From: Lachnospiraceae bacterium
GTDB taxonomy: Bacteria; Bacillota; Clostridia; Lachnospirales; Lachnospiraceae
Length of the DNA stretch: 64,000 nucleotides
Assembly: GCA_017938145.1 (NCBI GenBank)
Contig: JAGBCB010000037.1
Coordinates: forward strand, 1 to 64,000
Direction: 5' to 3'
The notes under the pieces are model-generated. The model searched no databases. It was not told where the DNA came from and was given only the letters and a program-made list of their open reading frames with translations. A program made the position numbers and the translations under genes. Shown here piece after piece: positions 5,017 to 45,541 of this stretch; the first letter of the stretch is position 1; each line of letters opens with the position of its first letter.

Positions 5017-5943
5017 TTGTTGACATATACTCAAGCAGAACGATTTATAAATAAGTTGGGTGCGGAAAGATATAACGAGCGAATTAGTGTTGTAGAAAAA
5101 TACAAAGATCAATGGGAATTGTCCGAAATAACATTTCAGCCATCGCTTTCCGTTAACAGTCTGATTTTCTATGCGTTTTCAAAACGGTATGGTAATGTTA
5201 TATTCAAAATTCTTATTAACAATGAGTTTGAAGAAGATATAAAAGAAATAATGTCACTAATACAGTTTCAAGGAGAAAATTTCTGCAAACTTTATGAGTA
5301 TTCAATTGAGGATAAGGTTTATATAATGGAACGGATTATTCCTGCTGATACTTTATATGAAAGTGCACGCCGCGATGAACGGATAAAGATTGTAGGAGCC
5401 ATATTTAAAGTACTACACAAAACTGACTTGCCGGACAGTAAATTCCCTACATATTCCGAATGGTTTGATGCAGGAAAGGAAGGAACAAAAAATCGTAAGG
5501 ATTGTGAAGAACTACGTCAATATCTTGAAAGCGCCGAGAGCATGCTGAAAGATATATGCCAAAAGTATTCACGCAATGTTCTGTTACATGGCGATTTACA
5601 TCACGAAAATATACTTAAGAATGAAAATGGCGGCTATACGGTCATTGACCCAAAAGGTGTAGCAGGTGACCCGGTATTTGATTTGTCGAGATTTATACTT
5701 GATGAATTCAGAGACGACTTAGTCTCAGAGCCAAAGGAGACAATCCTGAATTTTGTTAAAAATCTTAGTGCCAGCGTTGGTATTCCCTGTGAGACTTTAT
5801 TGCGCTGTTTGTATATTGAAACGGTCATTTGGCTTTTCAGAGAAGAACTTGCCAATGGAGAAAGCCTTGAAGAATGCGAGCAGCTTATTACGAATATGAA
5901 AACTGCGTATGAATTTACTAATATGATTCACGATATGTGCTGA
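5017..5943 (+). CDS. APH-family small-molecule phosphotransferase
   Basis: This 308-residue kinase-fold protein belongs to the aminoglycoside phosphotransferase superfamily. It shows the catalytic loop HGDLHHEN (191-198, base D193) and the metal-binding IDPKG (D211) followed by GDPVFDLSRF. The IDPKG and GDP pattern is closest to the APH(6)/hydroxyurea phosphotransferase branch. It would transfer phosphate from ATP to a hydroxyl of a small molecule in the cytoplasm, possibly an antibiotic, though the substrate cannot be read from the sequence. TTG 5017 is chosen because AGGAAGG lies nine bases upstream. TATAAT at 4979-4984 is a likely -10. It sits directly outside the element's attachment site. 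Confidence 0.8.
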   Translation: MLTYTQAERFINKLGAERYNERISVVEKYKDQWELSEITFQPSLSVNSLIFYAFSKRYGNVIFKILINNEFEEDIKEIMSLIQFQGENFCKLYEYSIEDKVYIMERIIPADTLYESARRDERIKIVGAIFKVLHKTDLPDSKFPTYSEWFDAGKEGTKNRKDCEELRQYLESAESMLKDICQKYSRNVLLHGDLHHENILKNENGGYTVIDPKGVAGDPVFDLSRFILDEFRDDLVSEPKETILNFVKNLSASVGIPCETLLRCLYIETVIWLFREELANGESLEECEQLITNMKTAYEFTNMIHDMC

Positions 5944-17983: not shown

Positions 17984-18102
17984 TGTATGATGAAATGTGA
18001 TGTTTGGCAACTATGGGTTGCAAAAGAGCACGTGGGATGTGGTGGAAAAAGTCGGAGGATTCCTGTACAATAGCCTCATAAGTATTAACGGGAGGAACCG
18101 TC

Positions 18103-42301: not shown

Positions 42302-42322
42302 AATTGTAAACCAAACTTTACG

Positions 42323-42359
42323 GGAAAAGCGATTTTTTTCAAAAAAATCGCTTTTTTTA
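42323..42359 (+). terminator. Terminator after ansA
   Basis: AAAAGCGATTTTTTT pairs with AAAAAAATCGCTTTT around a one-base loop centre, ending in a T run. Confidence 0.82.
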
Positions 42360-42360
42360 G

Positions 42361-42455
42361 TGGACAAAATGAAAAAAGTAGCATATAATGCAACTGAAAG
42401 TTGCAGAAAAAGCATTGTAAAGTTGCTTGTAAGTCATATGTTATGTTGCTATAAT
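42361..42455 (+). promoter_or_regulatory. Tandem promoters and palindrome of the XRE-GlmM operon
   Basis: Promoter 1 is TGGACA (42361-42366), a 17-base spacer and TATAAT (42384-42389). A perfect palindrome GCAACT-GAA-AGTTGC (42390-42404) follows directly, across the expected transcription start. Promoter 2 is TTGTAA (42427-42432), a 17-base spacer and TATAAT (42450-42455). Another AGTTGC half-site lies at 42421-42426, abutting the promoter 2 -35. The palindrome is the natural operator candidate for the DNA-binding domain of the first gene. Confidence 0.65.
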
Positions 42456-42496: not shown

Positions 42497-44119
42497 ATGA
42501 CAATTGGTCAAAAGATTATTCAACTCAGAAATGCTGCCGATATTTCCCAGGAACAGCTGGCGGAGACTCTCGGGGTTTCCAGACAGTCCGTATCCAAGTG
42601 GGAGATGGACCAGGCACTTCCGCAGATTGACAAAGTGTTACAGCTGGCAGAAATTTTCAGTGTATCCACAGATGAATTACTGCTTGATAAAATTGAAATC
42701 AACAGAAAGCCTGCAAATGAACCAAGAACCTTAAAGTACTTTGGTACCGACGGTTTCCGCGGTGAGGCAAATGTAACTTTAACCTCCATGCAGGCCTATA
42801 AGGTGGGACGTTTCCTTGGATGGTATTATTCCTCCAAGCTTTCCGGATGTACAAAAGCGGGTTACCGTCCACGTATCGTTATCGGTAAGGACACCCGCCG
42901 TTCCAGTTACATGCTGGAGTATTCCATTGTGGCAGGTCTTACTGCCAGTGGCGCGGATGTATATATGCTGCACGTTATTACGACACCGGGTGTATCCTAC
43001 GTTACCCGTAAGGATGAATTTGACTGCGGTATTATGATTACTGCGTCCCACAATCCATACTATGACAACGGTATCAAGGTTATCAATTCCTACGGTGAAA
43101 AGCTGGATGATGATACCACCATGTTAATCGAAGCATACATTGATGGCGACTTAAAGACTCTTGGCGTTACAGGCGATGACCTGCCACTGGCCCAGAAGTC
43201 CAAGATCGGTTGTATCCACGACTATTCTGCAGGCAGAAACCGTTACATCGGTTACCTGATTTCCGTGGCATCCAATTCTTATAAAAAGTTAAGAATCGGA
43301 TTGGACTGTGCCAACGGTGCTTCCTGGAACATTGCCAATGCGGTATTCAGTGCCCTGGGTGCACAGACCTACGTTATCGGTGATGAACCGGACGGTCTCA
43401 ACTGTAATGAGGGCTGCGGTTCCACCCATATTGAAAAGTTAAAGAAGTTAGTAAAAGATAAGCATTTAGACCTTGGCTTTGCCTTTGACGGTGATGCCGA
43501 CCGCTGTATCGCAGTGGACGGAAACGGCAACGAGGTAGACGGCGATGCCATGATTTACATCCTCGGTAAGAGAATGAAGGCAAGAGGCACCTTGAATGAC
43601 AACACTGTTGTTACCACCATTATGTCCAACAGCGGCTTTGTAAACAGCCTTGCTGAAATCGGCATCAAGTGCGAGCAGACCAAGGTTGGTGACCGTTTCG
43701 TTTATGAGTGCATGCAGGCAAATGATTATGCCATCGGCGGCGAGCAGTCCGGTCACATTATCATGAAGAAGTACGCTACCACCGGTGACGGTATTTTAAC
43801 CGCTATCATGATTGCAGAGGAAATTTGCGATTCCAAGTCTACTCTTGCCCAACTGGCAGAACCAATCAAGTTCTATCCGCAGTACTTAAAGAACCTGCGT
43901 GTAAAGGATAAAGCGGCAGTATTTGCAGATGCCAATGTAATGGCTGCAAAGGATGCGGTAGAAAAGCTCATCAACGGAAAGGGCAGAGCACTGCTTCGTC
44001 AGAGCGGTACCGAGCCGGTTGTCCGTGTTATGATTGAGAGTGAAACACAGGAACAGTGTGTAGAATATGCAGAGATGATTGCAAAGGCAATTGCGGAAGG
44101 AGGACACTGCGTTGAATAA
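42497..44119 (+). CDS. XRE DNA-binding domain fused to a GlmM-type phosphohexomutase
   Basis: This 540-residue protein combines a full XRE helix-turn-helix (about 1-63: ISQEQLAETLGVSRQSVSKWE) with a complete phosphohexomutase (about 78-538). The enzyme part has FGTDGFRGEAN, catalytic Ser184 in TASHNP, metal loop DGDADR (331-336), sugar-binding GGEQSGH and phosphate-binding RQSGTEPVVRV, closest to phosphoglucosamine mutase. It should convert glucosamine-6-P to glucosamine-1-P and probably binds DNA. ATG 42497 follows AAAGGAG. Downstream genes are a hexapeptide acyltransferase-like protein and NagB, so the enzyme may control its own pathway directly. All key residues are intact. Confidence 0.9.
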   Translation: MTIGQKIIQLRNAADISQEQLAETLGVSRQSVSKWEMDQALPQIDKVLQLAEIFSVSTDELLLDKIEINRKPANEPRTLKYFGTDGFRGEANVTLTSMQAYKVGRFLGWYYSSKLSGCTKAGYRPRIVIGKDTRRSSYMLEYSIVAGLTASGADVYMLHVITTPGVSYVTRKDEFDCGIMITASHNPYYDNGIKVINSYGEKLDDDTTMLIEAYIDGDLKTLGVTGDDLPLAQKSKIGCIHDYSAGRNRYIGYLISVASNSYKKLRIGLDCANGASWNIANAVFSALGAQTYVIGDEPDGLNCNEGCGSTHIEKLKKLVKDKHLDLGFAFDGDADRCIAVDGNGNEVDGDAMIYILGKRMKARGTLNDNTVVTTIMSNSGFVNSLAEIGIKCEQTKVGDRFVYECMQANDYAIGGEQSGHIIMKKYATTGDGILTAIMIAEEICDSKSTLAQLAEPIKFYPQYLKNLRVKDKAAVFADANVMAAKDAVEKLINGKGRALLRQSGTEPVVRVMIESETQEQCVEYAEMIAKAIAEGGHCVE

Positions 44120-44774
44120 ATTAGTAAAAACAAAGGATTTATATGCGTCCCAGCCGGAGTATCTGGTGGAGCTGTTTGAAAGCAGCGAGTACCCATGGGA
44201 GATGCTTCCAAAGCTGAAGGATTACATCAAGGCGTTAATCGAAAAGGGAATTCCGGGTTACACCAAGCTTTCCGACGACGTTCTTATTGGTGAAAATGTA
44301 AAGATTTACCCAACCGCTACCATCGAAGGTCCAACCATTATCGGTTCCAACACCGAGGTTCGCCCGGGTGCTTACATTCGCGGCAGCGTTATCACCGGTG
44401 AAGGCTGTGTCATGGGTAACTCTTCCGAGTTTAAGAACTGTATTTTACTGGATAAGGTGCAGGCTCCGCATTACAACTACATTGGCGACTCGATCTTAGG
44501 TTATAAGGCACATACCGGTGCCGGCACCATCTGTTCCAACTTAAAGTCCGACGGCAAGGCAGTAGTCATCCACGGTGAGGAAGACTACGAAACCGGTCTT
44601 AGAAAAATCGGCGGCATCCTGGCAGACGGCGCAGACGTAGGCTGTGGCTCCGTTATCAATCCGGGTACCGTAATCGGCAAGAACACTACAGTTTATCCTT
44701 TAACCTCTCTGCGTGGTGTATATCCGGCGGACTGCATCGTTAAGGATCAGAAGACTGTGGTTAAGAGAGTGTAA
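44112..44774 (+). CDS. Hexapeptide-repeat protein, GlmU C-terminal-like
   Basis: This 220-residue protein has a short helical N-terminus (about 1-45) and a left-handed beta helix of hexapeptide repeats (IGENVKIYPTATIEGPTIIG, then VRPGAYIRGSVITG). It resembles the acetyltransferase half of GlmU, without the uridylyltransferase half. The TTG 44112 start has GGAAGGAGGA seven bases upstream and overlaps the GlmM stop by eight bases, so translation is coupled. It may acetylate glucosamine-1-P or act as a nucleotide-sugar partner. Confidence 0.82.
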   Translation: MNKLVKTKDLYASQPEYLVELFESSEYPWEMLPKLKDYIKALIEKGIPGYTKLSDDVLIGENVKIYPTATIEGPTIIGSNTEVRPGAYIRGSVITGEGCVMGNSSEFKNCILLDKVQAPHYNYIGDSILGYKAHTGAGTICSNLKSDGKAVVIHGEEDYETGLRKIGGILADGADVGCGSVINPGTVIGKNTTVYPLTSLRGVYPADCIVKDQKTVVKRV

Positions 44775-44830
44775 GACTAGTATTTTGAGGCTTTCAAATT
44801 AAAATATATTAAATTGAGGAGATTAAGATT

Positions 44831-45541
44831 ATGAATTTCATTAAGGTAAACAATTATGACGAACTTAGCACAAAGGCAGCAGCTCTTATCTGCGCACAGG
44901 TAGTTATGAAGCCAAACTGCGTACTTGGTCTGGCTACCGGTTCTTCCCCACTTGGTACTTATGCAAAGATTGCAGAAAAGTGTGCTAACGGAGAAGTAGA
45001 CTTCTCCAAGGTTTCTTCCATCAACCTTGACGAGTATGTAGGTTTAGATGGTTCCAACGACCAGAGCTACCGTTACTTCATGAACACCAACCTGTTCGAA
45101 AAGATTAACATCGATGTAACTAAGACCAACGTTCCTAACGGCTGTGCAGCAGACCTTCAGAAGGAATGTGAAGCTTACGATGCACTGATTCAGCAGAGCG
45201 GCGGCATCGACCTTCAGTTACTTGGTATCGGCCTTGACGGTCACATCGGTTTCAACGAGCCTGATTCCTACTTTGAAAAGGCAACTCACGTAGTAGACCT
45301 TGACCCATCCACCATCGAAGCAAATGCACGTTTCTTCGCATCCGAAGCAGATGTTCCGAGAAAGGCTGTTACCATGGGTATGGGCGGCATTATGAGCGCA
45401 AAGAAGGTTCTTTTAATTGCCAACGGCAAGAACAAGAAGGACATCGTAGAAAAGGCATTCTTCGGACCAATCACACCGGCAGTTCCTGCTTCCATTCTGC
45501 AGCTTCATCCGGATTTAACTGTAATTTACAGTGAGAACTAA
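44831..45541 (+). CDS. nagB: Glucosamine-6-phosphate deaminase
   Basis: This 236-residue enzyme converts glucosamine-6-P to fructose-6-P and ammonia. Motifs are LATGSSPLGTY (phosphate loop), SINLDEYVGLDG with the catalytic Asp, and GIGLDGHIGFNEP with the catalytic His. The sequence matches NagB. GAGGAG precedes ATG 44831. It is the catabolic counterpart of the GlmM-type enzyme encoded two genes upstream, so opposing fluxes are encoded in one operon. Confidence 0.95.
   Translation: MNFIKVNNYDELSTKAAALICAQVVMKPNCVLGLATGSSPLGTYAKIAEKCANGEVDFSKVSSINLDEYVGLDGSNDQSYRYFMNTNLFEKINIDVTKTNVPNGCAADLQKECEAYDALIQQSGGIDLQLLGIGLDGHIGFNEPDSYFEKATHVVDLDPSTIEANARFFASEADVPRKAVTMGMGGIMSAKKVLLIANGKNKKDIVEKAFFGPITPAVPASILQLHPDLTVIYSEN

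Follow-up and report, generated by a model that had tools for sequence, protein, structure and literature searches.

A GlmM fused to an XRE-type DNA-binding domain as a predicted autoregulator of its own amino-sugar operon

The stretch studied here, hereafter the window, comprises 64,000 nucleotides (nt) of contig JAGBCB010000037.1 from a Lachnospiraceae bacterium (GCA_017938145.1), and carries a gene in which an XRE-type helix-turn-helix (HTH) domain is joined to a phosphoglucosamine mutase (GlmM). GlmM converts glucosamine-6-phosphate (GlcN-6-P) to glucosamine-1-phosphate, the second step toward UDP-N-acetylglucosamine (UDP-GlcNAc) and peptidoglycan. Comparison of sequences makes it quite probable that the fusion protein is a trigger enzyme, a bifunctional GlmM autoregulating its own operon, whichever the sign of that regulation; the version in which it acts as a repressor has about an even chance.

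In the window, the open reading frame (ORF) list shows one uninterrupted frame from the start ATG at 42497 to 44119. HTH_3 of Pfam (PF01381) matched at amino acids (aa) 7-61 with an E-value of 1.7e-14 and 54 bits against a cut-off of 23, covering model positions 1-55 of 55, and four of four PGM/PMM domains of Pfam matched at aa 80-530. The NCBIfam model glmM TIGR01455 scored 500.6 bits against a cut-off of 447.55 over model positions 1-441 of 442. The top match among solved structures was a phosphoglucosamine mutase (7ojr_A, 416 bits), and the solved phosphoglucosamine mutases align only from aa 80 onward. An earlier reading of this DNA, made from the letters alone and called here the sequence-only reading, had described an intact transcription-factor domain joined to a complete phosphohexomutase; the ORF, Pfam and NCBIfam results confirm this, and by its family match the phosphohexomutase is specifically a GlmM. 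As in a trigger enzyme, the enzyme and the DNA-binding domain both appear intact in a single chain.

An artefact or frameshift was ruled out, since HTH and mutase share one open frame in all 51 collected fused proteins (the L070 protein starts within the HTH, at a contig end). All four searched genomes of the window genus carry the fusion, the other three at 94, 92 and 89% identity and with the same two downstream genes, and no match over both HTH and mutase was among the matches listed in 57 further genomes of that search. Matches across both parts were obtained in 3 of 397 genomes of the family sample, in 5 of 344 of the order sample (the window genome and four others, all from one genus of another family) and in 1 of 398 of the phylum sample, the window genome itself. 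A scan of species genomes gave at least 80 loci; counts on fused loci rest on the matches listed. Among the 80 listed, at least 46 other fused loci (L044-L089, with L070 truncated by its contig end) cover both HTH and mutase, with 49-95% identity over aa 1-150. This rules out a fusion of one genus only, as well as one refutation named by the sequence-only reading, a degenerate HTH in a fusion confined to this one sequence. The records are named Lachnospiraceae, Oscillospiraceae, Clostridia, Erysipelotrichaceae, Bacillales, Acholeplasmatales and similar; many are ruminant gut samples, going by their titles, and metagenome assemblies make up most of the relatives. Overall, carriers of the fusion are rare yet scattered over distant gut lineages. 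No fused copy was present among the best 10 of 2084 plasmid records, all ten of which begin at aa 65-80. No account of an HTH-GlmM fusion was found among the papers listed, at the level of titles and abstract openings, with subscription papers and preprints lying outside that search.

The regulatory role is suggested first by a palindrome before the operon, O1, with the consensus GCAACYnnnRGTTGC. Of 48 fused genes, 36 have its exact form, GCAAC-N5-GTTGC, in the 220 nt before their start (mean 0.03 and maximum 1 in Markov shuffles), and none of 34 unfused glmM loci contains it anywhere in the available stretch. The count of 48 excludes L070, whose contig starts inside the gene, and L044, on the same contig as L007, and has L035 and L222 added. 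In the window, the O1-type palindrome occurs twice against 0.01 expected. A genome-wide search with GCAACYNNNRGTTGC covered 38 of 51 genomes (37 fused, 1 unfused; the 13 left out comprise 4 with an exact upstream site, 8 without and 1 unknown) and returned 63 O1-type sites against 9 for a reversed-pattern control. Exactly one site was present in 20 genomes, at the fusion in 18 of them, while 2 of the 38, one being the unfused control, had none. Conserved sequences resembling binding sites thus stand before the protein's own genes, as in trigger enzymes, and we strongly infer that O1-type sites are bound by the fused HTH. The proposal of the sequence-only reading that the enzyme regulates its own pathway gains support from these operator-like sites. 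No paper was found in which the palindrome halves occur together with XRE.

A second palindrome farther upstream, O0, shows a defined distance from O1. Matches of at least 17/20 to its consensus, TTGYAAAYTNNARTTTRCAA, are present upstream of 19 of 50 fused genes and of none of 34 unfused ones (shuffles 0.7 and 0.2), an excess that is partly by construction since the consensus was composed after reading the upstreams; the unfused control and the spacing are exempt from this. When O1 served as the anchor and L080 was excluded, 26 of 43 loci had an O0 core scoring at least 13/16, against a mean of 5.9 and a maximum of 11 in 100 shuffles; the centre distances were 63.5-64.5 (3 loci), 71.5-74.5 (17) and 82.5-84.5 bp (5), with one outlier at 43.5. 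At 14/16, all 18 loci lie at 72.5-74.5 (14) or 82.5-84.5 (4). With a helical repeat of 10.5 bp, the classes (25 of the 43 loci) correspond closely to 6, 7 and 8 turns; the loci are related, so that the Rayleigh value for this spacing overstates its significance; L006 differs from its relatives by a change from 7 to 8 turns within one genus. Because of the three near-integral classes and this change, it is suggestive that O0 and O1 need one helix face. Mixed half-sites in L055, L057 and L067 further suggest that one protein binds both O0 and O1. Allowing at most one mismatch, O0 occurs at 6 places in 14 genomes, 5 of them at the fusion.

O0-like pairs also lie upstream of a stand-alone sugar-nucleotidyltransferase gene in genome G431, hinting at a co-regulated split GlmU partner. 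Orthologs were present in 29 of 36 genomes and the upstreams of 25 of these were scanned (four were without a parsed start); a wider regulon with this gene was rejected, as just 2 of the 25 reached an O0 score of at least 18. Eight other O0-like places that were fetched gave no coherent gene set. Regulation looks single-target from these comparisons, apart from XRE genes with like sites. An A+T-rich hairpin followed by a T run, seen by eye between O0 and O1 (42326-42358) and not listed by the promoter scan, is probably the terminator of the asparaginase gene.

The promoter scan of the window gave 11 promoter-like sites against 5.3 from shuffles. Two of them, P1 and P2, precede the fusion gene (Table 1); P1 was seen in the window and, by eye, in L005, with no general conservation. 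The layout was compared over 36 loci whose O1 scores at least 13/15 and precedes the start by over 60 nt, L080 being excluded. A half-site TTG[ACG]TTG follows O1 in 31 of the 36, exactly 18 nt after it in 22 (shuffles: 0.8 loci). Of these 31 loci, 29 also have a TANNNT box farther on, with a spacer of 17 nt in 28 and of 18 nt in one, so that the half-site abuts a -35 box. In other loci the palindrome is placed 26-33 nt before the start codon (L079, L081-L083, near-identical and Bacilli-type; L089; L085, with one mismatch), the typical place of a repressor.

Table 1. Positions in the window of the fusion gene, its predicted control elements and other features
Feature	Position	Strand	Details
Second copy of the O1-type palindrome (GCAACYNNNRGTTGC)	18007..18021	.	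ends 82 nt before the XRE gene start
Separate XRE regulator, 205 aa	18103..18720	+	same palindrome upstream
O0, putative upstream palindrome (TTGTAAACCAAACTTTACGG, 16/20 to consensus)	42304..42323	.	centre 83.5 bp (about 8 helical turns) from O1 centre
P1, promoter-like: TGGACA, 17 nt, TATAAT	42361..42389	+	promoter scan; predicted start inside O1
O1, palindrome GCAACTGAAAGTTGC, main putative operator	42390..42404	.	comparative evidence
O2, half-site AGTTGC	42421..42426	+	directly upstream of P2 -35 hexamer
P2, promoter-like: TTGTAA, 17 nt, TATAAT, TG before -10	42427..42455	+	promoter scan
HTH_XRE-GlmM fusion gene	42497..44119	+	540 aa: HTH aa 7-61, variable linker about aa 62-79, GlmM aa 80-533
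Stand-alone left-handed beta-helix (hexapeptide) protein, GlmU C-terminal-domain-like	44112..44774	+	220 aa; 8-nt overlap with fusion gene
NagB, glucosamine-6-phosphate deaminase	44831..45541	+	TIGR00502, 261 bits against cut-off 237
Cobalamin riboswitch aptamer RF00174	59408-59597	+	53.5 bits

This layout allows two signs of control. As an autoactivator, the HTH would sit at O1 (about -66) and O2 (about -40), relative to a start assumed to lie 7 nt past the -10 box, and contact RNA polymerase at P2, with ligand-favoured binding raising synthesis. Lambda CI, which activates at PRM, provides the model. The nearly fixed distance of O1 and the half-site upstream of P2, with the half-site at the -35 box, agrees with activation, to which we assign a minor but appreciable chance. 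P2, however, is already near consensus, the palindrome stands just before the start codon in four Bacilli-type loci and in L085 and L089, and the P1 start of the window would fall within O1. For these reasons repression is preferred, and we infer it with about twice the weight given to activation.

O1-type sites outside the fusions connect the palindrome with this HTH type. For 11 of 30 such sites, an XRE gene whose HTH is similar starts no more than 130 nt downstream, and in the five genomes of the window family 8 of the 10 non-fusion sites precede XRE genes of this kind. One of the 11 is the site at 18007 in the window, before a separate XRE gene, which gives an independent tie between HTH type and palindrome, and the O1-type palindrome probably serves as operator for a wider XRE subfamily. 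It could accordingly be argued that another, unfused XRE regulator binds the sites, cross-binding being possible where other XRE genes share the palindrome, and that the fused HTH is an oligomerisation or allosteric module of GlmM. We consider this improbable: the site is at the fusion in nearly all single-site genomes, the unfused glmM loci lack it even in the sister clade with the same glmM-hexapeptide order, and the recognition region [IV][ST]RQ[SA][VILM]S[KR]WE is kept in 51 of 51 fused proteins.

Several points weigh against autoregulation through these sites, or against its repressor form. The exact O1 palindrome is missing from 12 of 48 fused upstreams, and 7 of 49 (L069, L075, L077, L084, L086, L087 and L088) have no score above 11/15 within 220 nt; L069 has an O1 site 365 nt upstream. 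The consensus patterns were composed after the upstreams had been read, so the excess over shuffles is partly by construction; the loci are related and their counts are not independent; and the reversed-pattern control contains CG pairs, so that its count of 9 may run too low. Recognisable XRE partners are absent near 19 of the 30 extra genomic sites, some of which probably arise by chance. Since O0 is unlike O1 in both its half-site and its length, it might be the target of another protein, and 17 of 43 loci are without a good O0. Its weaker form is not specific, since with up to two mismatches it occurs at 55 places in 14 genomes (control 21), only 8 of them at the fusion. Finally, the sites lie upstream of P2 in most loci, which activation would fit equally.

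The mutase part has the marks of a working enzyme. The window protein contains ASHN, DGDADR, GGEQSGH and RQSGTEP, which we take to be the phosphoserine, metal, sugar-binding and phosphate-binding loops. Among the fused proteins ASHN, DGDxDR and GGExxGH are each present in 51 of 51 and RxSGTEP in 50 of 51; the stricter forms DGDADR and GE[QNS]SGH are kept in 44 and 45 of 51. The sequence-only reading had proposed looking for a second, unfused glmM. One is present in the window genome (G000:C30:42751-44061, 536 bits), and a second GlmM over the cut-off of 448 bits was found in only 10 of 50 fused genomes. In one more (G434) a second match reached 419.5 bits, below the cut-off. The other 39, the 97%-complete G002 included, show no other GlmM-like match above 158 bits; completeness is known for 5 of the 50, and the matches at about 158 bits are probably other phosphohexomutases. 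Because of these 39 genomes, the fused protein is probably the working GlmM of most carriers.

Instead, the mutase part might have lost catalysis and act only as a sensor, like the enzyme-fold domain of BzdR, with the real GlmM elsewhere, and the genomes with a second GlmM, that of the window among them, would agree with this. So would the fused copy of G248 (L035), in which GGEPTGH and RQSGTESV replace the conserved loops. With the catalytic motifs kept in nearly all fused proteins and no other candidate in most carriers, we regard a general loss of catalysis as improbable. L035 itself is perhaps heading toward a pure regulator; its altered loops fit the presence of an unfused GlmM (578 bits) in the same genome, since the enzyme role would then be free to fade.

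The HTH appears intact, conserved and under purifying selection. Its ratio of nonsynonymous to synonymous substitution rates (dN/dS) against four close relatives was 0.017, 0.016, 0.066 and 0.005, and that of the mutase was 0.029-0.044 where measurable; 3 of 7 comparisons gave no HTH ratio, the synonymous sites being saturated. The linker sequence varies freely in an alignment of 41 of the 51 fused proteins. A neutral fusion without regulatory meaning is very improbable, as the HTH is kept across 49-95% identity with dN/dS far below 1 in four comparisons while the linker varies, and the sites are conserved along with it.

Considering the above results, we have proposed a model for the repressor form of the autoregulating GlmM. 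GlmM and NagB both consume GlcN-6-P. GlmM of Staphylococcus is treated as a dimer (PMC6368335), and a dimer would pair the HTHs. In the model, GlmM dimers would set HTH pairs on O1, on the half-site O2 and on O0; with O0 and O1 on one helix face, contacts between bound dimers could lead to stacking or looping of the DNA, which would keep the promoter repressed. Accumulating GlcN-6-P would bind and close the mutase domain, releasing the HTH, and the release would raise GlmM and NagB, the two consumers of GlcN-6-P. Looping and GlcN-6-P as the signal are put forward as hypotheses, and the substrate sensing proposed by the sequence-only reading has this status too. GlcN-6-P is preferred as a ligand of the enzyme that is also consumed by two products of the operon, GlmM and NagB. 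The full proposal is that the essential, often sole GlmM of one gut Bacillota lineage is a DNA-looping autoregulator, in which mutase oligomers bridge operators 6, 7 or 8 whole helical turns apart and amino-sugar flux opens or closes a wall-precursor promoter; it is tentative, with a chance clearly short of even.

To consider the origin of the fusion, a tree was built from 113 mutase domains, 51 of them from fused and 62 from unfused proteins. Nine unfused loci without a full parsed domain were dropped, four of which, L124-L127, are second copies in fused genomes. One branch separates all fused proteins and the unfused L091 from the rest, with support of 91 to 91.8 in the Shimodaira-Hasegawa-like approximate likelihood ratio test, not starred. 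L091 nests within the fused clade in the best tree, as expected of a copy losing its HTH, and it is perhaps such a copy; the approximately unbiased (AU) test does not reject the fused proteins alone as one clade (p 0.43). A single origin of the fusion is compatible with the data. L091 lies on the same contig as the fused L222 (genome G467), about 20 kb apart. The native GlmM proteins of the family, including the second copy of the window genome (L001), form a different clade (99, starred). Full vertical inheritance within the family of the window is unlikely, as the window genus sits in the fused clade, apart from the native one. Because the native GlmMs form this separate clade, the window genus probably received the fused operon by horizontal transfer. 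In G001 and G002 no native glmM copy was seen, the assemblies being 86% and 97% complete.

Downstream of the fusion, family matches confirm the GlmU C-terminal-like protein and NagB of the sequence-only reading. The start of the hexapeptide gene was set at TTG 44112 after its relatives, the ORF list giving an earlier TTG. Its protein best matches the C-terminal part of Arch_glmU in NCBIfam, at 140 bits and below the cut-off of 292, and only the C-terminal part of bifunctional GlmU (TIGR01173) matches it, at 50 against 367 bits. The hexapeptide gene adjoins the fusion in 40 of 46 listed fused loci, and nagB lies inside the available stretch in 22 of 46. In L073 glmS is the next gene, and the unfused sister loci L101 and L109 have the order glmM-hexapeptide-glmS, with GlmS above cut-off in all three. 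The further suggestion that the fusion links wall-precursor synthesis to breakdown gains no clear support, given NagB in only 22 of the 46 and glmS instead in one. In L093, an unfused sister-clade glmM is directly preceded by a gene (5456-5926) whose N-terminal part resembles LexA, at 60.8 bits and below the cut-off.

A bifunctional GlmU over the cut-off was found in none of the five family genomes searched (G000-G003 and G248; best 54.7 bits), a negative that serves as an indication, since just 9 of the 14 control genomes reach that cut-off. The acetyltransferase step may be carried out by the hexapeptide protein, and the uridylyltransferase of these five genomes is presumably a separate protein. 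An Rfam scan of the window showed no riboswitch at the operon, its single match being a distant cobalamin riboswitch (Table 1), and riboswitch control of the operon was rejected for the families in the library used.

If the prediction holds, it would represent a natural enzyme-regulator at an early, committed step of peptidoglycan-precursor synthesis, with sensor, catalyst and transcription factor in one molecule. Several stages can be compared within the family: unfused sister operons, fused and apparently sole GlmMs, and fused copies accompanied by a native GlmM. In addition, the active-site loops are changed in one fused copy, and one relative in or near the fused clade has no HTH. Given the predicted operator array, a single promoter fragment and a single protein would suffice for a direct test of autoregulation and looping.

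Several known systems are close to the one predicted here. In comparison with ordinary GlmM, the match to TIGR01455 is full-length, but about 79 extra N-terminal residues carry a DNA-binding domain. A second, regulatory role of GlmM has been described, in which it inhibits the cyclic di-AMP cyclase DacA by protein contact (PMC6368335); there GlmM acts on an enzyme by binding, whereas the fusion would act on DNA via its fused domain. PutA, BirA and NadR of Escherichia coli are trigger enzymes with the same logic, and PutA binds solely between putA and putP (PMC8249747). The present case differs in its enzyme, a GlmM of the UDP-GlcNAc and peptidoglycan pathway that is usually the sole GlmM found, in its XRE domain and in its predicted O0-O1-O2 array. 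BzdR resembles the fusion in its N-terminal XRE HTH, linker and C-terminal enzyme fold; kinase activity could not be detected in its C-terminal domain, which senses benzoyl-CoA (PMC3602430). In contrast, the motifs of the fusion are intact and its enzyme belongs to the regulated pathway; no shikimate-kinase-like domain, as in the BzdR subfamily, is among its Pfam and NCBIfam matches. In the BzdR study an intermediate of this kind had to be constructed synthetically, the chimera Q1, which was called a bifunctional regulator (PMC3602430). The HTH-GlmM fusion is possibly the natural counterpart of that intermediate.

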